A stretch of 64,000 nucleotides of DNA from Sulfuriferula multivorans. Its GTDB lineage: Bacteria > Pseudomonadota > Gammaproteobacteria > Burkholderiales > Sulfuriferulaceae. The translations under genes and the position numbers were made by a program. Within the stretch, counting starts at the first letter, position 1. Each line of letters begins with the position of its first letter. Location: positions 1 through 64,000 of the forward strand of contig NZ_BGOW01000033.1 in NCBI RefSeq assembly GCF_003851125.1, read 5' to 3'. Below are positions 32,589-45,196 of this stretch, piece after piece. The notes beneath the pieces are model-generated. The model was given only the letters and a program-made list of their open reading frames with translations, had not been told where the DNA came from and searched no databases.

Positions 32589-33791
32589 GTGCTGACTGTA
32601 GACCAGTTATTGGAAGAATTGCTCAAGCGCGCGCGCGGGCTGACGCAAACCGAGGTAGTGCCTGCTGAACTGGCCTTTGGACGCGTGCTGGCGCAGCCGC
32701 AGGTATCTACGATCAGCGTGCCGCCGCTGGATAACAGCGCGATGGATGGCTACGCCGTACGTGCCGCCGAATGTGCGCCGGATGCGCTGCTGGCGGTCTC
32801 GCAACGCATCGCTGCCGGACAGGTGGGCGGGGCGCTGGCAACGGGCAGCGTGGCGCGGATTTTCACCGGCGCGCCGGTGCCGCCGGGAGCCGATGCGGTG
32901 GTGATGCAGGAGTATTGCAGCGTGGACGGTGACAAGGTGCAGATTAATCACCAGCCCAAATCGGGCGAGAATATCCGCCGCGCCGGGGAAGACATACGCC
33001 CCGGTGACACCATCCTGGCTGCAGGCACACGTCTGGATGCTGCCGCGATGGGACTGGCCGCGTCGGTGGGTCTGGCTGCGCTGCCGGTGTACCGGCGCCT
33101 CAAGGTGGCCAGCTTTTCCACCGGCGACGAACTGGTGCAACCGGGGACGGCGCTGGGGGCAGGGCAGATTTATAACTCCAACCGTTATACGCTGGCCGGC
33201 CTGGTGCAGGGCTTGGGTTGCGAATGGCTGGATCTGGGCAGCGTTCCCGACACCCTGGCGGCCACGCTGGCCGCACTGCAGCGCGCGGCAGCCATGGCCG
33301 ACGTGGTGATTACCAGCGGCGGCGTGTCGGTGGGAGAAGAAGACCACGTCAAGGCTGCGGTTGAACAACTCGGCAAAATCGACATGTGGAAGGTGGCGAT
33401 GAAACCCGGCAAGCCGCTGGTATATGGGCGCGTGGTTGAGGCGGATTTCATCGGTCTGCCCGGCAATCCGGTATCCACGTTTGTCACTTTTGTGCTGTTT
33501 GCCCGGCCGTTTCTGCTCAAACGCATGGGCGTGGTCGATGTGCTACCCAAAACCTATTGGGTCACGGCCGCATTCGACTGGACGAAACCGGGCCAGCGCC
33601 GCGAGTTCCTGCGCGCGCGGCTGCAAGCGGGACAGGGCGGCGAACTGGAAGCGCAGCTATTCCATAATCAGAGTTCCGGCGTACTCACCTCCGCAGTTTG
33701 GGCGGATGGCCTGGTGGATATTGACATTGGCCATACCGTCACACGCGGCGAGTTGGTGCGATTTATCCCGTTTAGCGAGGTGCTGGGATGA
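32589..33791 (+). CDS. moeA: Molybdopterin molybdenumtransferase MoeA
   Basis: The 400-residue enzyme inserts molybdate into adenylated molybdopterin. It has SVPPLDNSAMDGYAVR near its start, RIFTGAPVPPGADAVVMQE, STGDELVQPG and TSGGVSVGEEDHVK of the MPT-binding domain, then VGLPGNPVS-like GLPGNPVSTFV. Probable GTG start at 32589, one base after mobB. Its stop overlaps moaD (ATGA). Confidence 0.95.
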   Translation: MLTVDQLLEELLKRARGLTQTEVVPAELAFGRVLAQPQVSTISVPPLDNSAMDGYAVRAAECAPDALLAVSQRIAAGQVGGALATGSVARIFTGAPVPPGADAVVMQEYCSVDGDKVQINHQPKSGENIRRAGEDIRPGDTILAAGTRLDAAAMGLAASVGLAALPVYRRLKVASFSTGDELVQPGTALGAGQIYNSNRYTLAGLVQGLGCEWLDLGSVPDTLAATLAALQRAAAMADVVITSGGVSVGEEDHVKAAVEQLGKIDMWKVAMKPGKPLVYGRVVEADFIGLPGNPVSTFVTFVLFARPFLLKRMGVVDVLPKTYWVTAAFDWTKPGQRREFLRARLQAGQGGELEAQLFHNQSSGVLTSAVWADGLVDIDIGHTVTRGELVRFIPFSEVLG

Positions 33792-34045
33792 AACTCAAGG
33801 TTCTGTATTTTGCCCGCCTGCGCGAACGCCTGGGGGTGGCTGAAGAAACCGTGGAACTGCCCGACGGCATGGGCATGGTTGCCATGCTGCTCGACGTGCT
33901 GCGCGCGCGCGGCGGCGTATGGGCGGAGGAACTCGCCGCTGGCAAGAATTTCCGGGCGGCGGTCAACCAGGATATGGCCGGCATGGAAGCCCCCATTGAA
34001 GACGGCGACGAAGTGGCGATATTCCCGCCAGTAACGGGGGGCTGA
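33788..34045 (+). CDS. moaD: Molybdopterin synthase sulfur-carrier subunit MoaD
   Basis: The 85-residue ubiquitin-like protein ends in Gly-Gly (PPVTGG), the site that is thiocarboxylated to deliver sulfur. It overlaps moeA by 4 bases and moaE by 1 base. Confidence 0.93.
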   Translation: MKLKVLYFARLRERLGVAEETVELPDGMGMVAMLLDVLRARGGVWAEELAAGKNFRAAVNQDMAGMEAPIEDGDEVAIFPPVTGG

Positions 34046-34497
34046 TGAAAATTCTCGTCGATGACAAGGACTTTGACGCCGGTGCCGAAATCACCGCGCT
34101 GCGTGCAGGCAACCCGCAAGTCGGCGCGGTGGCGAGCTTCGTCGGCCTGGTGCGTGATAGCAATGCGGGCAGTAACGTGGACAGTATGACGCTGGAACAT
34201 TATCCCGCCATGACCCAGCGTGCACTGGGGGCGATTGTGGCCAAGGCCGGCCAGCGCTGGGCGCTGCTGGATGTGACGGTGATCCACCGCGTGGGCGAGT
34301 TACACCCGGGCGATCAGATTGTGCTGGTGGCGGTGGCCTCCAGCCATCGCGCGGACGCGTTTGCCGCGTGCGAGTTCATCATGGATTACCTCAAGACCCA
34401 GGCGCCGTTCTGGAAAAAAGAACAGACCCCTGAGGGACCGCGCTGGGTGGAACAGCGCGCCACGGATGAGCAGGCGGCGGCGCGCTGGACCGAGTAA
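34045..34497 (+). CDS. moaE: Molybdopterin synthase catalytic subunit MoaE
   Basis: The 150-residue catalytic subunit converts cyclic pyranopterin monophosphate to molybdopterin with MoaD. It has GAVASFVGLVRD, LEHYPAMTQ, HRVGELHPGDQIVLVAVAS and the active-site Lys in FWKKEQTPEGPRWVE. Its ATG shares one base with the moaD stop. Confidence 0.95.
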   Translation: MKILVDDKDFDAGAEITALRAGNPQVGAVASFVGLVRDSNAGSNVDSMTLEHYPAMTQRALGAIVAKAGQRWALLDVTVIHRVGELHPGDQIVLVAVASSHRADAFAACEFIMDYLKTQAPFWKKEQTPEGPRWVEQRATDEQAAARWTE

Positions 34498-36189: not shown

Positions 36190-36822
36190 TTAAAACTTCC
36201 ACCCAAAACCGACCCCCAGCACTAGCGGGTCGAGCCGGACATGGCTGACCGTGGCGCCAGTCGCTGCCAGCTTTACGTCAGAGCTGATATAGATTTTCTT
36301 GACGTCGAAATTGATGAATTTGTTTTCGCCCACTTCCACATCGAAACCCGCCTGGAGTGCGCCGCCCCAGCTACTCCTGCCCATATCCAGTTGCCCCACG
36401 CCGGGCACACTGAGGTTGACGTCGGAAAAATGCGTATAGTTGATCCCCGCCCCCAGATAAGGTCTGAATTTTCCATCCGGGATGAAATGGTATTGAACGG
36501 TCAAGGTGGGAGGCAGGTGCTTGGCGGTTCCGATCTTTGTCCCATTCAAGGAAACGTCATGCCTCTGGGGATAGGTCAGTATCAATTCCAGCGCGATGTT
36601 GTTCAGCAAAAAATAGCTGAGATCGATTTCAGGCGCCCATTTGTTATTCAATGTAATCGCATTGGCAGGCACACCTAGCGCCGGGATGGGATCGGACTGG
36701 TTTCTGGGTTGAATATCAAGCGCGCGTATGCGGACCAGCCAATCCCCCTGATCTGCATGGGCTTGTGACTGCACTATCGTCAAGACACCGAAAACAAATG
36801 CCGGATATAAATATTTTTTCAT
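36190..36822 (-). CDS. ompW: OmpW-family outer membrane protein
   Basis: The 210-residue protein has a signal peptide cleaved near SQAHA, then an 8-strand beta-barrel pattern (WLVRIRALDIQPRN, PEIDLSYFLLNNIALELIL, FRPYLGAGINYTHFSD) and a C-terminal aromatic (GVGFGWKF). OmpW forms a narrow channel for small hydrophobic molecules. I use the ATG at 36822 (GGGAG 6 bases upstream) over the GTG one codon earlier. A sigma-54-type promoter lies 42 bases upstream. It is next to two sigma-54 activator genes. Confidence 0.88.
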   Translation of the reverse strand: MKKYLYPAFVFGVLTIVQSQAHADQGDWLVRIRALDIQPRNQSDPIPALGVPANAITLNNKWAPEIDLSYFLLNNIALELILTYPQRHDVSLNGTKIGTAKHLPPTLTVQYHFIPDGKFRPYLGAGINYTHFSDVNLSVPGVGQLDMGRSSWGGALQAGFDVEVGENKFINFDVKKIYISSDVKLAATGATVSHVRLDPLVLGVGFGWKF

Positions 36823-36863
36823 CACTTTCTCCCTGGTATGAACGACAAGCTACAGGGGATAAA

Positions 36864-36878
36864 GCAATGCTTATGCCA
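36864..36878 (-). promoter_or_regulatory. Sigma-54 (-24/-12) promoter of ompW
   Basis: On the minus strand the sequence reads TGGCATAAGCATTGC, with GG and GC separated by exactly 10 bases as sigma-54 requires. It differs from the sqr promoter at one of 15 positions. Predicted transcription start is about 30 bases before the ompW ATG. A 5-base inverted repeat ATTGT-N6-ACAAT lies just upstream at 36887-36902 and might be an activator site. Confidence 0.72.
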
Positions 36879-37062: not shown

Positions 37063-38715
37063 TCACTTGCCTTTATCCATATGTACGACTTTGAGCCTCA
37101 CCTGGGAGCGATAGCTGTTGGGATCCATGCTGTGTAAATTGAGCTTCTGATGGATCGCCCTGGGCGTCACACCTAAAGACTTCGCTACCTCGCTGACATT
37201 GCCATGGAAACGGCTAAGTGCCTGCCTGAGAATGAGCGCCTCCACCTGCTCGCCTGCCCGCTGTTTCGCCTCCTTGAGCGACAGGTCAGCGGCCTGCATC
37301 GCGCTTGCCGGCGCATCGCTGCCGGTTTTTGGAAGCAGCAGCTCGGTCATGATCGGACCAGGTGAGAACAGGAACGAGCGCTCCAGTACGTTCTCCAGTT
37401 CGCGCACGTTGCCAGGCCAATCGTACTGCATCACCCGCGCTATTGCGGCCGCGCTTAATGCTTTGATGACTTTGTTGTATTTGGTGGAGAGCTGCGCAAG
37501 GATGTGATTGACGAGCGGCAAAATATCCTCGCATCGTTCGCGTAGCGGCGGGAGAAGAATGGGCACCACGTTGATCCGGTAATAGAGATCCATCCGGAAA
37601 GTCCCCTCGGCAATGAACTTGTCCAAACGTGTACCGGCTGCGGCAATTACCCGAACATTTGCGGACAGGCGCTGCTTCCCGCCTACGCGTTCGAACTCGC
37701 CACCCTGCAGCACGCGTAGCAGGCGCGCCTGCGCAGCCAGTGGCAAGGAATCGATCTCGTCCAGAAACAGGCTTCCGCCCTCGGCCTGTTCAAACAGACC
37801 GTGATGAACTTCGTAAGCGCCGGTAAACGCACCGCGCTCATGTCCGAATAGCGTGGTTTCGACCAAATTTTCGGGTATTGCGCCGCAGTTTACTGCAACG
37901 AAATTCCGGTTCCAGCGTTCGCTCAATGCGTGGATGCGACGCGCAATGACCTCCTTGCCCACGCCGGTCTCACCGGTAATCAGCACGGTCGCGGTGGTCG
38001 GCGCCACGACCTTGATTGTCTCCAGTGCATTGAGCATGGCCGGGGACTTTGCCACGATGAAAGGTTTGTCGGCATTCTCGGGCTGGTTCGGGCTGGCACC
38101 GCACCAGACTTTTCCGTCGCGCCGTTCTCTAATGATCTGCGCTTTGACTGTTGCTCCCCGGCCGCGGATGACGCCCTGTTCGCGGTGATATTCGTCTCCT
38201 TCGAAGTCGGCGGCAATCCTGGGGTCGGTATAAATGCGCGCCTCGCACATCCCGTCTCCCACCGCAATGCGTTTGTCCAGGATCACTTTCGCGTAACCGA
38301 AGTTACGTGCGGCAATCCCGCCGAATACGCTGGAGGTCATCTTGCACAGCTCAGGCGCCTGCATGACTGCATCCCCGAAAGGGCAGCGCGTATTGACCAC
38401 GCGCACCATATCCGGCTCGCTTGATGCACGCGAAAAATTTCCGCCGATCTTGTTCTTGATTTCCACGATCATGTCCGCGTACTTGTCATGATCCAGAGGG
38501 CCGTCTTGCGCCAACTCCTGGCGATACGCGGTTTCAAAGCAGCCGCTCGCGGTGAGGCCGAGCTGTTCGATGTAATTCAAGCGGTCATTTCCGTTGCCGC
38601 CCCCCATCTTTGCGCTGACTTCGACGCTCTGGGCAACAAAGGTTTGCAAAAACAGGATGGGATTCAGATGGGAAAAAAGCTTATCGGGCACAGTCATTCT
38701 CCTCAAATCCGACAC
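37063..38715 (-). CDS. Sigma-54-dependent activator with methanogen-output-like sensor domain
   Basis: The protein of about 550 residues has three parts. The N-terminal sensor (about 1-205) contains VNTRCPFGDAVMQAPELCKM and GDGMCEARIY, resembling the so-called methanogen output domain with conserved Cys. The AAA+ domain (about 225-460) has GETGVGKE and the sigma-54 contact loop GAFTGA. A Fis-type helix-turn-helix (NVSEVAKSLGVTPRAIHQKL) is near the C-terminus. The start is the GTG at 38715 or the ATG at 38697. It follows the carbonic-anhydrase-like and fmdB genes in the same direction. Likely targets are the sigma-54 promoters of ompW or the carbonic-anhydrase-like gene. The ligand is unknown. 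Confidence 0.85.
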   Translation of the reverse strand: MSDLRRMTVPDKLFSHLNPILFLQTFVAQSVEVSAKMGGGNGNDRLNYIEQLGLTASGCFETAYRQELAQDGPLDHDKYADMIVEIKNKIGGNFSRASSEPDMVRVVNTRCPFGDAVMQAPELCKMTSSVFGGIAARNFGYAKVILDKRIAVGDGMCEARIYTDPRIAADFEGDEYHREQGVIRGRGATVKAQIIRERRDGKVWCGASPNQPENADKPFIVAKSPAMLNALETIKVVAPTTATVLITGETGVGKEVIARRIHALSERWNRNFVAVNCGAIPENLVETTLFGHERGAFTGAYEVHHGLFEQAEGGSLFLDEIDSLPLAAQARLLRVLQGGEFERVGGKQRLSANVRVIAAAGTRLDKFIAEGTFRMDLYYRINVVPILLPPLRERCEDILPLVNHILAQLSTKYNKVIKALSAAAIARVMQYDWPGNVRELENVLERSFLFSPGPIMTELLLPKTGSDAPASAMQAADLSLKEAKQRAGEQVEALILRQALSRFHGNVSEVAKSLGVTPRAIHQKLNLHSMDPNSYRSQVRLKVVHMDKGK

Positions 38716-38783: not shown

Positions 38784-39035
38784 TCAAGAATGTTGACGTT
38801 GCCCACATCCGCACCCGGACCCGTGTACGTGTTTCTCCTGTCCTGGTTTTGGTTGCAGCGAGCGCATTGCCAGATCACGACCGCGCGCCATATGGCCATG
38901 CATCGCCGGGGCCGTGAGGATTACTTTAGCGGTAGCAGCCCCGCATATCGGGCAATCCGGGCTGGGGGCACTGATTGCATGGTGTGCTTCAAATTGTAGC
39001 TTGCATTGCGTGCACTGGTAATCATAAGTAGGCAT
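38784..39035 (-). CDS. FmdB-family zinc-ribbon protein
   Basis: The 83-residue protein starts MPTYDYQCTQCKLQFEAHH, and its second Cys pair is CPICG, forming a zinc ribbon. A His/Cys/Gly-rich tail (HVHGSGCGCGQRQHS) may bind further metal. FmdB-type proteins have been tied to regulation of amide or C1 enzymes, but most are uncharacterised. The start at 39035 matches the family. It lies between the carbonic-anhydrase-like gene and the sigma-54 activator. Confidence 0.85.
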   Translation of the reverse strand: MPTYDYQCTQCKLQFEAHHAISAPSPDCPICGAATAKVILTAPAMHGHMARGRDLAMRSLQPKPGQEKHVHGSGCGCGQRQHS

Positions 39036-39132
39036 CTGGAACCTCATTTTGTAGGTTGGCGCGTTTCCCGGAAACGCCACGGCGTGGACACCCGTTACGC
39101 CAGGCGCCCACGCTTGGGTTTCCTTTAAGAGA

Positions 39133-39786
39133 CTAGCTCCAGCGCGCAGGTTGCTTCCCCTTGACGCCGAATTGGCTGGCGGTAACGTCGGTCCGGGACC
39201 GTTTTTCCGGATCCCGGGTCGGCGCCCTTAGCCGACGCGTCTCCACCTCCCAGACCCAGCCGCTGATGACCACATCCTTGGGAATGAGGGGATGATTTTT
39301 GAATGCCTCGATTGTTTTCATGCAGGTTTCGTCTACGTCGTCCATCATCCCGATCCACTTGGCGAACGCGCCTTTCTCCAGCTTCAATTCCGGCAGTGTT
39401 GGGTCCATTGCGATATTGTCCGTATCGACCCCCTTGTCACGTAACATCTTTTCCAGATCGGTCGCGTTCGCAGACAGCATGCCGCATTGCGTATGCTGCA
39501 CGATGACGATTTCCTCAGTACCAAAGAAATTGCAGGTCAGCATCGCCGAACGGATTGCATCGTCGGTGACGATTCCTCCGGCGTTGCGGAAGCAGTGCGC
39601 ATCACCATGCCCGGCTGGCGTGTCTACGTGAATGCCGAGCGCTTCGTCTACCGGCAGGCGTTCGTCCATACAGGCAAGCACCCACAATTTCCGGTCGTTA
39701 GCCCCGGCCGGTCCATGACGGCGGCGTTTTTCCCAGATGTCGTATGCAGCGACGTGCGCTGTCAGTTGCTCTTTGAGAGTTGTCAT
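39133..39786 (-). CDS. Beta-carbonic-anhydrase-family protein (possible COS hydrolase)
   Basis: The 217-residue protein has the beta-carbonic-anhydrase zinc set: Cys39, Asp41 and Arg43 in ACMDERL, and His98 and Cys101 in HTQC. The RNAGG loop at 67-71 and the LPVDEALG segment resemble the clade that includes the carbonyl sulfide hydrolase of Thiobacillus. The reaction is either CO2 hydration or COS hydrolysis to H2S and CO2; sequence alone does not decide. COS hydrolysis would feed the nearby sulfide:quinone oxidoreductase. A sigma-54-type promoter lies 112 bases upstream, and fmdB and an activator gene follow. Confidence 0.8.
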   Translation of the reverse strand: MTTLKEQLTAHVAAYDIWEKRRRHGPAGANDRKLWVLACMDERLPVDEALGIHVDTPAGHGDAHCFRNAGGIVTDDAIRSAMLTCNFFGTEEIVIVQHTQCGMLSANATDLEKMLRDKGVDTDNIAMDPTLPELKLEKGAFAKWIGMMDDVDETCMKTIEAFKNHPLIPKDVVISGWVWEVETRRLRAPTRDPEKRSRTDVTASQFGVKGKQPARWS

Positions 39787-40139
39787 TTTCAGTCTCCTCG
39801 GTAAAAGGCTACAAATTTAGAATTCCTTGAGCAGCCTGACTGCTACGGAAGTTGCACAAGGAAATTGGTTGCGGGCGATTACCCGCACCCCTGACTAGCA
39901 AGCCTCATACCAAAAATATATTTTATTAAAATTCAATAGGTTATATTTATCCACTTGGCATCAAGCGGTTTCAATTTCGTGCCGAAAACAAGTTGATTGC
40001 TTGTAATTCATTGAATTAAATGATGATATTTAAATGAAAAAAAGCTTCTTAGTGGGAAGTAACGCTGCTTAAGGTGGGGTGATGGAACAATCGGACGTCG
40101 CGCTACCCTGACGGGGGCTTATTCCATCGCAATGAAAAC
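39787..40139. other. AT-rich intergenic region with regulatory sites
   Basis: These 353 bases hold no gene. They contain the sigma-54 promoter match at 39898-39912 and an inverted repeat AATTCA-T-TGAATT at 40005-40017 that could bind an activator. fisR ends at the right edge. I see no clear terminator for fisR. Confidence 0.5.
39898..39912 (-). promoter_or_regulatory. Sigma-54 (-24/-12) promoter of carbonic-anhydrase-like gene
   Basis: The minus strand reads TTGGTATGAGGCTTGCT, which fits the relaxed consensus YTGGYAYR-N4-TTGCW with 10 bases between GG and GC. The predicted leader is about 100 bases. It matches the ompW and sqr sites in spacing but not in the variable bases. Confidence 0.62.
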
Positions 40140-41486
40140 TCAGGCCAGTTTGTAATGCTTCAGTTTGCGATACAGGGTGCGTTCGCTGATACCCAGCACA
40201 TCCGCCACATTGCGGCGATGGCCGTTGTGGCTGATCAACAGCTCGGCAATGTGATGCGCCTCCAGTTCCGCAATGGAGGATCCAGATGGACTGCCCGTCC
40301 TGGTCGTGTCGCTGGGCGTTCCGGAAGGTGCATGGTTGTGCATGGATGAGTGGCCGCCAAGGTGGATATGCGCGGCGCTGATGATGCCGTGGCTGCTCAT
40401 GGCCACGGCTTTCAGCAAAATATTGCGCAGTTCCCGCACATTGCCCGGAAAGCTATACCGCATCAATTTTTCCAGAGCGTCATCGGTGAGCTTGCAGCGA
40501 GGCGCACCCGCCTGAGTAATGCGTTTGAGCATGGCCTCTGCCAGTGCCGGGATGTCACCGCTCCGTTCCCTCAAACTCGGCAGAGCCAAGTCTATGCCAG
40601 CAATACGGTAATACAGGTCGAGGCGAAAGAGTTTGGCTTCGGCCATCTCCAGCAGGTCGCGGTTGGTGGCCGAGATCAGCCGCACATCGGCGCGTAACGT
40701 ATCTGTGCCGCCGAGGCGGCGGAACTCGCCGGTTTCCAGTACCCGCAACAGTTTGGCCTGCATATTGGACGGGATTTCTCCGGCTTCATCCAGAAACAGG
40801 GTACCGCCGTCGGCCAGTTCGAATAACCCCTGCCGCCTTCCTATACAGCCAGTAAACGCGCCACGCTCGTGACCAAACAGCTCATCCTCGAACATGGTCT
40901 CTGCAATGGAGGCGCAATTCACTGCGATGAAGGGTTTGTTGCGCCGTGTCGAGCGGCGATGAATGTACTGCGCTGCCAGTTCCTTGCCGACTCCGCTTTC
41001 GCCCAGCAGCAGGATGGCGGCCTCGGATTCGGCGGCACGGGTAAGTTGGTCAAGGCAGGCAAGAAAAGCAGGCGAATTGCCGATCATGCGCAGGTCTTCA
41101 CAGTCCAGTTCATCCGAATTGGCGATGTGGAAAATCGCTTCGCCCAGATAGCGGTGCTGGCCGGGACCCTGGATTGGATGCCCCTTGATACGTGCGTATT
41201 CCGGGCGATTATGGCGGTCGAAATGGGTATGGATGACTTCATGTGTCTGGCCGCTACGAAACACTTCCTGATGCGGGCAGTCCTCGCCATTCTGATGACA
41301 GGGAACCGGAGAGCGGTGCGATACCTCGTGGCAGGTTTTCCCCACCACTTCGTTTTTATCCATCGCATAGGTAACGCAATAAGCACGGTTGGCTGCAACG
41401 ATGCGGTAGTTTTCGTCTATCAGCACAAAAGGATTTTCCTGTACGTCAATCAGGGATTGGAGTTCCGGTGCAAGCAGGGTATCCAT
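40140..41486 (-). CDS. fisR: FisR-like sulfane-sulfur-responsive sigma-54 activator
   Basis: The protein of about 448 residues has an N-terminal PAS-like sensor (about 1-110), an AAA+ domain with GESGVGKE and GAFTGC, and a Fis-type helix-turn-helix ([19 protein letters not shown]). With the start at 41486 (AGGA 9 bases upstream), Cys52, Cys63 and Cys70 lie in KTCHEV, VPCHQ and DCPH. The 11- and 7-residue spacing is that of Cys53, Cys64 and Cys71, reported as the sulfane-sulfur sensing residues of Cupriavidus FisR. It diverges from sqr, which has a sigma-54 promoter, as in known FisR systems. GAFTGC in place of GAFTGA is a small oddity. An upstream frame to 41555 exists. Confidence 0.88.
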
Positions 41487-41506
41487 AAGCATTATTCCTG
41501 ACAGAG

Positions 41507-41558
41507 TGTCATGACATGAATGTGTCAGCTTAGTATAAAGCGGCCAAAATGACATGAC
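41507..41558. promoter_or_regulatory. Candidate FisR upstream activator sites
   Basis: A perfect palindrome TGTCATGACA (41507-41516) overlaps an inverted repeat TGACA-N6-TGTCA (41512-41527), and a further copy TGACATGAC lies at 41550-41558. They stand about 65-115 bases before the sqr -24 element, the usual distance for sigma-54 activator binding, and next to the fisR start, so they may serve autoregulation too. Confidence 0.55.
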
Positions 41559-41620: not shown

Positions 41621-41635
41621 TGGCATAAGTATTGC
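41621..41635 (+). promoter_or_regulatory. Sigma-54 (-24/-12) promoter of sqr
   Basis: TGGCATAAGTATTGC has GG at 41622-41623 and GC at 41634-41635, ten bases apart. The predicted start of transcription is near 41647, leaving a leader of about 70 bases to the sqr ATG. Confidence 0.8.
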
Positions 41636-41719
41636 AAAGCCATGATGCATGGGGCGACACCTGCGCAGCAGATGTTCACCATAAAAACCGATATTCAACA
41701 GATTGCAGAGGATGACCAA

Positions 41720-42988
41720 ATGGCACACATCGTTATCATTGGCGCGGGTATTGGCGGCATGCCCATGGCTTACGAAATGCGCGAACAGGCACGCAAGGAT
41801 GACAAGGTGACGGTTATTTCAGATACCGATACTTTCCACTTCGTCCCTTCCAACCCATGGGTGGGTGTGAAATGGCGCACTCGAGCAGACATTGCCTTCC
41901 CCATTGCCAATTATTTACAGAAAAAAAATATCGATTTCATCCACAGTGGCGCCAAACGCGTACATCCGGACAAAAATCAGGTCGAGCTGATGGATGGACG
42001 TAACGTCGATTACGATTACCTGATTATCGCCACCGGTCCCAAATTGGCGTTTGACGAAGTACCCGGTCTGGGGCCTGAGGGGCATACCCATTCCATTTGT
42101 CATGTCGATCACGCTGAAAAATCCGCCCAAAAATGGGAGGATTTCTGCGCCAATCCTGGCCCCATCGTCGTGGGTGCGGTGCAGATGGCCTCCTGCTATG
42201 GGCCGGCCTACGAATATGCCTTCATCATGGACACCGATCTCAAGCGCCGCAAGATACGCGACAAGGTGCCGATGACTTTTGTCACCGCCGAACCCTATAT
42301 TGGCCACCTTGGCTTGGGCGGCGTGGGGGACTCCAAGGGCTTGCTGGAATCCGCCATGCGTGACCGCCACATCAAGTGGATATGCAATGCCAAAACCACC
42401 AAAGTCGAGGCGGGCAAGATGTTCGTCACGGAGCTCAACGACGACGGCAGCGTGAAAAAGGAACACGAACTGCCGTTCGACTACGCGATGATGCTGCCCG
42501 CGTTTAAAGGCGTAGACGCAGTATTCGGCATCGAGGGGCTGACCAACCCGCGCGGTTTCATCCTGATCGATCCCTATCAGCGCAACCCCAGGTTTCAGAA
42601 CATCTATTCGGTGGGTGTGTGCGTCGCCATTCCTCCGGTGGAAGTCACGCCGGTGCCCACTGGCGCGCCCAAGACCGGCTACATGATCGAATCCATGGTT
42701 GCAGCCACCGCGCTCAATATCCGCAGCGCCCTGGATGGCAGGGAGCCGATGGAAAAGGCCACCTGGAATGCCATCTGTCTGGCCGACTTCGGCGATACCG
42801 GCGCGGCCTTTGTGGCCCTGCCACAAATCCCGCCGCGCAACGTCAACTGGTTCAAGGAAGGAAAGTGGGTTCACCTGGCGAAAGTTGCGTTTGAAAAATA
42901 TTTCATCCGCAAGATGAAACAAGGTACCACCGAGCCGCTGTATGAAAAATATGTATTAGGGGCCTTGGGGATTAAAAAACTCAAGTGA
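41720..42988 (+). CDS. sqr: Sulfide:quinone oxidoreductase
   Basis: The 422-residue FAD disulfide oxidoreductase oxidises sulfide to sulfane sulfur and passes electrons to quinone at the membrane. The FAD loop is GAGIGG at 8-13. Three redox cysteines, Cys127 (SICHVDHA), Cys159 (MASCYGPAYE) and Cys353 (AICLADFGD), match the active-site set of the Acidithiobacillus enzyme. The C-terminal region (VAFEKYFIRKMKQG) is amphipathic and suits membrane association. I use the ATG at 41720 (AGAGGA 8 bases upstream). It is divergent from fisR and has a sigma-54 promoter. Confidence 0.93.
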   Translation: MAHIVIIGAGIGGMPMAYEMREQARKDDKVTVISDTDTFHFVPSNPWVGVKWRTRADIAFPIANYLQKKNIDFIHSGAKRVHPDKNQVELMDGRNVDYDYLIIATGPKLAFDEVPGLGPEGHTHSICHVDHAEKSAQKWEDFCANPGPIVVGAVQMASCYGPAYEYAFIMDTDLKRRKIRDKVPMTFVTAEPYIGHLGLGGVGDSKGLLESAMRDRHIKWICNAKTTKVEAGKMFVTELNDDGSVKKEHELPFDYAMMLPAFKGVDAVFGIEGLTNPRGFILIDPYQRNPRFQNIYSVGVCVAIPPVEVTPVPTGAPKTGYMIESMVAATALNIRSALDGREPMEKATWNAICLADFGDTGAAFVALPQIPPRNVNWFKEGKWVHLAKVAFEKYFIRKMKQGTTEPLYEKYVLGALGIKKLK

Positions 42989-44273: not shown

Positions 44274-44621
44274 ATGCTCAGCGAACAGGCCCTTTTCGAA
44301 ATTCTGTGTGACGCCACCCGTCGCCGCATTCTCAGCCTGTTGCGGCGCGAAGGCGAGCTGTGTGTGTGCGAGCTTTATTACGCGCTGGACATGCCGCAGC
44401 CCAAGGTGTCACGCCACTTGAGCGTGATGCGCGAAGCCGACATGCTGCTAGTGCGGCGTGAAGGTACGTGGGTTTTTTATCGGCTGAATGCTCAGATACC
44501 GGCTTGGTGTGATCGCATTCTGACGCAGATGAACGACGTCTGGCGCGCGAATCCGACGCATGTGCAGGATGCGGCGAAACTGGCTGACATGAGCAACCGT
44601 CCGGCACGCTGTTGCGCCTGA
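44274..44621 (+). CDS. arsR: Arsenic-responsive repressor ArsR
   Basis: The 115-residue winged-helix repressor has the metal-binding ELCVCEL at 28-34 (Cys30 and Cys32) in the recognition-helix region, as in E. coli ArsR. It releases DNA on binding arsenite. A C-terminal RCCA adds two more Cys. There is no ribosome site before the ATG, consistent with a leaderless transcript. First gene of the ars operon. Confidence 0.92.
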   Translation: MLSEQALFEILCDATRRRILSLLRREGELCVCELYYALDMPQPKVSRHLSVMREADMLLVRREGTWVFYRLNAQIPAWCDRILTQMNDVWRANPTHVQDAAKLADMSNRPARCCA

Positions 44622-44640
44622 GATTTTTTTGTCTTCTTAT

Positions 44641-44668
44641 ATTCGTTTTGGCGTATGTATTTTCGAAT
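44641..44668 (+). promoter_or_regulatory. Possible second ArsR site before arsC
   Basis: ATTCG-N6-CGTAT (44641-44656) matches the first operator with one mismatch, and CGAAT recurs at 44664-44668. It lies in the 65-base space between arsR and the first arsenate reductase. It may be a weak second operator. Confidence 0.35.
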
Positions 44669-44686
44669 CTGGTAAGGAGTTGCGGC

Positions 44687-45196
44687 TTGGACAATAAGGT
44701 TTTCAATGTGCTGTTCCTGTGTACCGGCAATTCAGCGCGGTCAATTCTGGCCGAGGCTTTGTTGAATCGCTTGGGAAACGGACGTTTTCATGCCTCCAGT
44801 GCGGGCAGTCACCCCGGTGGGACAGTGAATCCATTTGCCCTCGAACTGTTGGAAAAAAGCGGCTTGCCAGTGGCAGATTTGCGCAGCAAGTCGTGGGATG
44901 AATTTACGCTGCCCGGTACACCGGTGTTCGATTTCGTCTTTACTGTGTGCGATAACGCTGCCGGGGAGGTATGCCCGGTCTGGCCGGGTCAGCCGATGAC
45001 GGCGCATTGGGGGATTGAAGACCCGGCAGCCGTAGACGGCAGCGATGACGTCAAGCGCAAGGCGTTCCACACGGCGTATACGCAACTCAATCGCCGGCTG
45101 TCCATATTCACCTGTTTGCCGATCGCCAAGCTGGATGCCTTGTCACTGAAACACGCGCTGGATGATATTGGCCATTTACGTGAGCGCGGCGAATAA
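44687..45196 (+). CDS. arsC: Low-molecular-weight arsenate reductase (first copy)
   Basis: The 169-residue phosphatase-fold protein has the CX5R loop C12-TGNSA-R18. It belongs to the group with Ala in place of the second loop Cys. VCDNAAGEVCPVWPGQPMTAHWG carries further Cys and the catalytic Asp region. It should reduce arsenate. The TTG at 44687 is chosen because AAGGAG lies 7 bases upstream; the longer frame from 44612 overlaps arsR. Confidence 0.85.
   Translation: MDNKVFNVLFLCTGNSARSILAEALLNRLGNGRFHASSAGSHPGGTVNPFALELLEKSGLPVADLRSKSWDEFTLPGTPVFDFVFTVCDNAAGEVCPVWPGQPMTAHWGIEDPAAVDGSDDVKRKAFHTAYTQLNRRLSIFTCLPIAKLDALSLKHALDDIGHLRERGE

Follow-up and report, generated by a model that had tools for sequence, protein, structure and literature searches.

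We find that the gene at 39133-39786 of the window (the whole stretch of DNA that was analysed, 64 kb in length) most probably encodes a CS2 hydrolase that lies within a sigma-54 controlled module; we give this reading a probability of roughly 0.8. The enzyme is a further member of the known CS2 hydrolase family, and its predicted reaction leads from CS2 via COS to CO2 and H2S, the substrate being suggested by homology to the Acidianus CS2 hydrolase 3ten. CS2 is a toxic sulfur gas, and the locus is a conserved, switchable gene cluster that is common to sulfur oxidisers and ammonia oxidisers. The cluster and its surroundings contain the following features.

36190-36825, minus strand: OmpW-family outer membrane protein (Pfam; the NCBIfam OmpW model is below its cut-off)
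36863-36878, minus strand: sigma-54 site upstream of OmpW, TGGCATAAGCATTGCT (pattern search)
37063-38715, minus strand: sigma-54 activator with an N-terminal MetOD1/V4R-like sensor (Met54), an AAA+ domain and a Fis-type HTH
38784-39035, minus strand: FmdB-type zinc ribbon protein (Pfam, NCBIfam); its likely start is M16 of the ORF 38784-39080, judged from the onset of the Pfam and NCBIfam matches
39133-39786, minus strand: CS2 hydrolase-type gene (CSase), an ATG ORF of 217 codons (217 aa), Pfam Pro_CA
39897-39912, minus strand: sigma-54 promoter (-24/-12 type) in front of the CSase gene, TGGTATGAGGCTTGCT; its first base is 126 nt 5' of the ATG
40045-40059, no strand: CTTC-n7-GAAG inverted repeat, located about 147 nt 5' of the -24 element and put forward as the upstream activator site
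40140-41555, minus strand: PAS-domain sigma-54 activator (Pfam), divergent from the SQR-like gene
41621-41636, plus strand: sigma-54 site before the SQR-like gene, TGGCATAAGTATTGCA, 99 nt 5' of the likely ATG
41720-42988, plus strand: SQR-like flavoprotein, likely ATG at 41720 (listed ORF from 41612)

Two sigma-54 activators flank the hydrolase gene, of which the one at 40140-41555 is probably the regulator of the SQR-like gene. The name SQR is one that we infer, as the NCBIfam type III SQR model is below its cut-off.

The product of 39133-39786 matches Pfam Pro_CA with 35.8 bits (cut-off 25.7) and is the sole match to PF00484 in its own genome of 3.62 Mb. We compared it with 80 loci, which are the relatives among the matches listed for queries with peptides of the window protein; since they were found in this way, they form a sample of near relatives and not a census. 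An alignment of 38 proteins comprises the window protein and 37 of the 80 listed loci at less than 90% mutual identity; L045 (disturbed reading frame) and L074 (cut off by the contig end) were dropped beforehand, and the mycobacterial rows were trimmed to the enzyme part. The beta-CA zinc site is complete in the window protein (C39, D41, R43, H98 and C101), and these residues are invariant in 38 of 38 aligned proteins. An earlier note on this DNA had stated that the active-site residues fit the beta class, and this holds for both the Cys-His-Cys zinc site and the Asp-Arg pair.

The same note had asked whether the protein is a carbonic anhydrase or a COS hydrolase. Both options miss, as the nearest characterised relative that we tested is the CS2 hydrolase 3ten. 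In a search of PDB sequences, 3ten is the best match (168 bits, residues 28-191). The Thiobacillus thioparus COS hydrolase (COSase) 3vqj reaches 64.6 bits, which is lower than two carbonic anhydrases (88.8 and 77 bits) and similar to Rv1284 (65.7 bits). An AlphaFold2 monomer model of the product (mean pLDDT 84.7) aligns to 3ten with Z 19.1 and an rmsd of 3.0 over 183 residues, with 46% identity over the aligned part. Here, model residues 5-195 correspond to 3ten residues 3-191, and the N-terminal arm is included. The next best structure is the carbonic anhydrase 3las (Z 15.7), and 3vqj has Z 13.2.

In a tree of 51 rows, a branch with 100/100 support has 3ten on the same side as the window protein, its bacterial relatives and three haloarchaeal proteins, and the COSase 3vqj pairs with the Rv1284-type carbonic anhydrase (98/87); the Acidianus enzyme is the only characterised CS2 hydrolase in this tree, and the rows of 3ten and 3vqj are partial and on long branches, where the tool flagged long-branch joining. 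A constraint that unites the bacterial rows with COSase without 3ten is 48.5 log units worse and is rejected (p-AU 0.0101). In the phylogeny, which had been suggested beforehand as a check, the enzyme stands apart from the carbonic anhydrases and groups with 3ten and not with COSase.

According to PMC6382920, a Phe-Phe pair is characteristic of CS2 hydrolase. This pair is F87-F88 in the window protein, and it is also present in 3ten, in 79 of 79 scorable loci among the matches listed and in 3/3 haloarchaeal rows, where FFDT, FFEA and FFDT replace FFGT. It is absent from COSase, which has Leu-Leu, and from eight rows of the carbonic anhydrase type (four solved structures and four genome proteins). 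The motif CMDER is common to the window protein and 3ten. The earlier note had placed the Thiobacillus COS hydrolase in the clade with ACMDERLPVDEALG. This was not confirmed, as COSase has ACMDARLDVEDLLG in the corresponding position and is located outside that clade.

Compared to the Acidianus A1-3 CS2 hydrolase (3ten, 3teo), the window protein shares the clade (100/100), CMDER together with NFFGT, and the N-terminal arm; arms are present on both sides of the beta-CA core, as in CS2 hydrolases. The window protein differs by six extra residues at 56-61 (TPAGHG) and by its C-terminal tail, which has 26 residues past position 191 compared to 17 past the matching position 187 in 3ten. S1p of A. 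thiooxidans reportedly has PD at 26-27, TPAGGG at 56-61 and a tail extended by nine residues. The window protein is alike: PA occupies 26-27, TPAGHG occupies 56-61, and the tail exceeds that of 3ten by nine residues. The insertions and tail of S1p are said to have been proposed to prevent a catenane, and S1p reportedly forms only octamers. By analogy, given the S1p-like insertions and the longer tail, we would expect the window enzyme to assemble into a ring without catenane formation. The gap between D55 and GDAH has five residues, of the TPAGG/SPVGG kind, in the window and in 73 of 79 scorable listed loci. It is one residue long in six listed loci (L075-L080, Acidithiobacillus and similar), of which four have 199 aa; compared to such Acidithiobacillus-type loci, the window protein has two further residues at 26-27.

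The THI115 COS hydrolase of T. thioparus (3vqj, 3vrk) has in common with the window protein the clade D beta-CA fold, the zinc site and, as a likely shared substrate, COS. It is unlike the window protein in its distance (64.6 bits, Z 13.2), in CMDAR instead of CMDER, in its Leu-Leu and in its grouping with Rv1284. We rejected membership in the THI115 type based on the bits, the Z score, the tree, the p-AU value and Leu-Leu vs Phe-Phe. COS activity would nevertheless be expected because CS2 hydrolases reportedly act on COS too; in the window enzyme, it would represent the second half of CS2 hydrolysis.

Sigma-54 control of the hydrolase gene, which the earlier note had claimed, is strongly supported: a -24/-12 site is found at 39897-39912, an activator gene is adjacent, and the two are coupled across loci. 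We found a homologue of the activator encoded at 37063-38715 in 66 of the 80 relatives among the matches listed (42% identity or more across 100 aa or more); the FmdB zinc ribbon is present in 66/80 and both in 65/80. When the listed loci are counted together with the window, all 66 places with the activator have a -24/-12 site, compared to one of the 14 places without it (Fisher p 4e-14, which overstates the evidence as the places are related). This count is tblastn-based and covers 350 nt upstream in the 80 scorable places among 81 (80 listed loci and the window; L074 could not be scored). Among the matches listed, the 66 places with activator and site span 38 genus or MAG labels, and the 13 with neither span seven. 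As 11 of the 14 activator-less places among the matches listed lie outside the Pseudomonadota (nine Actinomycetota and two Nitrospirota), the contrast may partly be one of lineages. The cut-off for the site score, 20.3, was chosen after the scores were seen; at this cut-off, sites are found in 63 of 4000 shuffled and in 99 of 1604 downstream 350-nt stretches. The pattern TGGYAYRN4TTGCW has exactly three matches in the 64 kb, located before the OmpW gene, the hydrolase gene and the SQR-like gene. Shuffles contain 0.26 matches on average, and three were reached in 0 of 100.

The putative activator site was noticed as a dyad by eye and then counted on the same sequences, so that the following counts, from the upstream 400 nt and among the matches listed, are post hoc: GAAG-n5-CTTC is present in 42/66 places with the activator and 0/14 without it, CTTC-n7-GAAG in 33/66 and 0/14, and a looser dyad (n3-7 or n5-9) in 51/66 vs 0/14, the looser form being found in 72 of 1112 downstream 400-nt stretches. 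The lone CTTC-n7-GAAG match in the 64 kb is not above chance by itself, and its conservation is seen in the counts across loci. A search for exact palindromes in 33 upstream regions resulted in nothing common to more than two of them.

Similar sites accompany some of the neighbouring genes. OmpW homologues are found near only seven of the 80 relatives among the matches listed, and sites scoring at least 20.3 precede them in four of these seven loci (L002, L046, L054 and L068). Such a site precedes the close SQR homologue in one of five listed loci (L011); in the other four, the SQR gene follows the hydrolase gene on the same strand. In G399, which belongs to the same genus, a site is present before both the hydrolase gene and the SQR-like gene, and OmpW has no match in the G399 stretch. 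In G102 (L123), promoter and dyad are located about 1.5-1.6 kb upstream, and a transposase-like frame (recognised by eye), located between 10997 and 12666, separates them from the hydrolase gene.

The sensor comprises the N-terminal 205 residues of the activator 37063-38715 and is recognisable in 62 of 64 cluster members; the other two are PAS activators, one from the window and one from L011. All 35 rows compared keep its cysteines C111, C124 and C157. The sensor model has a pLDDT of 80.1, and the Pfam match is MetOD1. The best fold matches are TRAPPC3 chains (Z up to 12.4) and not bacterial sensors, and the phenol sensors MopR, DmpR and PoxR follow with Z 10.6-11.4 at 6-13% identity. The Foldseek matches are modest: the best E-value is 5.8e-4, and MopR has 1.3e-2. 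Like activators of the DmpR/MopR/PoxR type, the window activator carries a V4R-like sensor fold before AAA+ and a Fis-type HTH, and the three invariant cysteines presumably resemble the zinc site of these activators. Unlike them, its sensor matches MetOD1 and its gene adjoins a CS2 hydrolase-type gene instead of phenol genes. As the V4R/DmpR-like fold is one that occurs in sensors for small hydrophobic effectors, the model points to a small hydrophobic compound as the ligand. Considering the genes that are controlled, this ligand may be CS2, COS or a relative.

The closeness to sqr that had been put forward beforehand is confirmed by the SQR-like gene on the plus strand at 41720-42988, and a functional link is likely. 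SQR-like genes of three types were counted in 20 of 80 fetched flanks among the matches listed, besides the window; flank length varies between loci, and weaker matches such as L073 (24%) were left out of this count. Close homologues are present in five listed loci (L011, L065, L066, L068 and L074), the second type in 13 and the third type in two. The second type is an FAD-type protein, whose representative in L025 is fused to a BLH_phosphatase domain, and ten of its 13 loci are labelled Nitrosomonadaceae (27 such loci among the matches listed). It occurs together with a metallo-beta-lactamase gene in five listed loci and with a TauE gene in five, where one representative of each was checked with Pfam. 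In our reading, the set serves to oxidise sulfide and persulfide and to export sulfite, with the Pfam domains as the computed part. Four ammonia-oxidiser genomes of about 3 Mb contain one to two second-type matches each. In the genomes of L019 and L016, the single match has its coordinates on the copy beside the hydrolase gene. The complete genome of G102 contains just a 49-aa SQR piece in the 20 kb around the hydrolase gene.

Metal transporters also recur beside the hydrolase gene. These are a MerC-like membrane protein in seven listed loci (L061, L063-L065, L067, L068 and L072; assignment based on one Pfam-checked representative, L065), ZIP transporters in methanotrophs, and NiCoT-like proteins, recognised by eye, in L052, L053 and L078.

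We next turn to how widely the enzyme is spread. Among the listed loci and the window, Nitrosomonas accounts for 20 of 81 places and Mycobacterium for seven. Nitrosomonadaceae make up 27 of the 80 relatives among the matches listed; other listed hosts include Nitrosovibrio, Nitrosospira, Methylomonas, Methylobacter, Acidithiobacillus and Thiobacillus, and the near relatives include the sulfur oxidisers Sulfuricella, Thiobacillus and Thiohalocapsa. On plasmid NZ_CP091425.1 of Methylobacter sp. YRD-M1 (L118), genes for the hydrolase, a zinc ribbon, a ZIP transporter, a sigma-54 regulator and a cupin form a cassette that is flanked by IS-family transposase genes. In Mycobacterium L056 (5096-5900), the enzyme carries a YHS-like domain fused to its C-terminus (Pfam 28.5 bits, below the cut-off of 30.3), and the other six Mycobacterium proteins (L055, L057-L060 and L073) are similarly long, with about 60 extra aa. 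This YHS-like extension, compared to the separate zinc ribbon gene in most Pseudomonadota, hints at a metal-handling partner. Three proteins from haloarchaeal plasmids (L119, L121 and L122) are members of the CS2 hydrolase clade with CMDER and Phe-Phe, and they are annotated as carbonic anhydrase.

Based on these observations, we propose the following mechanism. The hydrolase, an enzyme of the clade D beta-CA family, would be the core of an inducible module, in which a zinc-hydroxide bound by Cys-His-Cys would attack CS2, giving COS and then CO2 and two H2S. For the V4R-like sensor of the neighbouring activator, the probable ligand is CS2, COS or another small hydrophobic sulfur compound related to them. 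The activator would then dock at the GAAG/CTTC dyads and activate the -24/-12 promoter in front of the hydrolase gene. Hydrophobic CS2 may cross the outer membrane with the help of OmpW, the SQR-like enzyme would oxidise the H2S that is set free, and the zinc ribbon (FmdB) protein may help to provide zinc.

The substrate can also be read in other ways. The protein might be a functional carbonic anhydrase for CO2/bicarbonate balance that was recruited into a sulfur locus: its beta-CA zinc site is complete, its own genome contains neither another PF00484 protein nor an alpha-CA, so that some CO2 hydration is possible, and public records, including those of plasmids, name such proteins carbonic anhydrase. 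However, of 18 genomes of the genus, only three contain the hydrolase gene (two of the 14 near-complete ones), and a PF00484 protein is absent from 14 of the 18, so that the lineage does not depend on such a protein; DabA has a match in 11 of the 18, the own genome among them. Control by a dedicated sigma-54 activator and the sulfide-type neighbours also argue against this alternative, as does the negligible or absent CO2 hydration that PMC8209446 gives for the CS2 hydrolases of Acidianus and A. thiooxidans and for the T. thioparus COSase. We thus consider a recruited carbonic anhydrase highly improbable. A housekeeping role in CO2 hydration is unlikely and was rejected, as the gene is not part of the conserved core of the lineage and DabA is present in the own genome; the preference of the earlier note for a sulfur substrate over such a role is supported. 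Alternatively, COS could be the physiological substrate, for example from thiocyanate breakdown, and CS2 incidental. This would agree with the reported action of CS2 hydrolases on COS, with near relatives that include sulfur oxidisers such as Sulfuricella, and with H2S being the product either way. Characterised relatives act on COS as well (the title enzyme of PMC8209446 and the COSase discussed there). Yet 3vqj is far more distant than 3ten by sequence, fold and tree, the Phe-Phe pair is that of CS2 hydrolase whereas COSase has Leu-Leu, and a sensor fold of the hydrophobic-effector type suits CS2 at least as well. We therefore regard COS as the physiological substrate as unlikely and retain the CS2 hydrolase.

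For a CS2 hydrolase, the module might mainly detoxify sulfur volatiles that are made or met in the cell instead of serving growth on CS2, which we consider a possibility at somewhat less than even odds. Nitrosomonadaceae, which to our knowledge are not known to live on H2S, carry the enzyme (27/80) and the activator (26/27) among the matches listed. Ten of these 27 loci have a second-type SQR-like gene and some have a metallo-beta-lactamase or TauE gene. Furthermore, CS2 inhibits ammonia monooxygenase (Hyman 1990, as cited in PMC13056722), and PMC6091914 names CS2 as a possible nitrifier inhibitor formed from thiosulfate, so that protection of nitrifiers is reasonable as a hypothesis. On the other hand, the relatives include sulfur oxidisers able to use H2S for energy (Sulfuricella, Thiobacillus and Thiohalocapsa), 17 of the 27 Nitrosomonadaceae loci among the matches listed have no such SQR-like gene in the available flanks, and G102 has only its SQR piece. 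Detoxification and growth on CS2 are not exclusive.

More tentatively, and with a little less than an even chance, the CS2 hydrolase could belong to a transferable CS2-response regulon. In such a regulon, the V4R-sensor activator would sense CS2 or a derivative and induce the CS2 hydrolase and sulfide-clearing enzymes; it would move between sulfur oxidisers, nitrifiers and methanotrophs and protect the copper monooxygenase in ammonia oxidisers and methanotrophs. We know of no earlier regulator for CS2, so that this regulon, if true, would be the first. It would also mean heritable resistance of nitrifiers to a natural nitrification inhibitor. In the literature that we searched, which covers few subscription journals, we found neither an account of a CS2 hydrolase with a sigma-54-regulated module nor a link of CS2 hydrolase to ammonia oxidisers. 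The presence in many Nitrosomonadaceae suggests a candidate explanation for the differing responses of nitrifiers to CS2 and CS2-releasing compounds, and the conserved dedicated activator offers a way to test how CS2 is perceived by bacteria. As the public plasmid records that we consulted label such proteins carbonic anhydrase, counts of the genetic potential to break down CS2 may be too low.

Lastly, two further gene pairs lie on the plus strand of the window. At 44274-45196, an ArsR-family regulator is followed by a protein of the low-molecular-weight phosphatase type, probably of the arsenate reductase kind. At 33788-34497, a ThiS/MoaD-type gene and a MoaE gene form a molybdopterin synthase pair.
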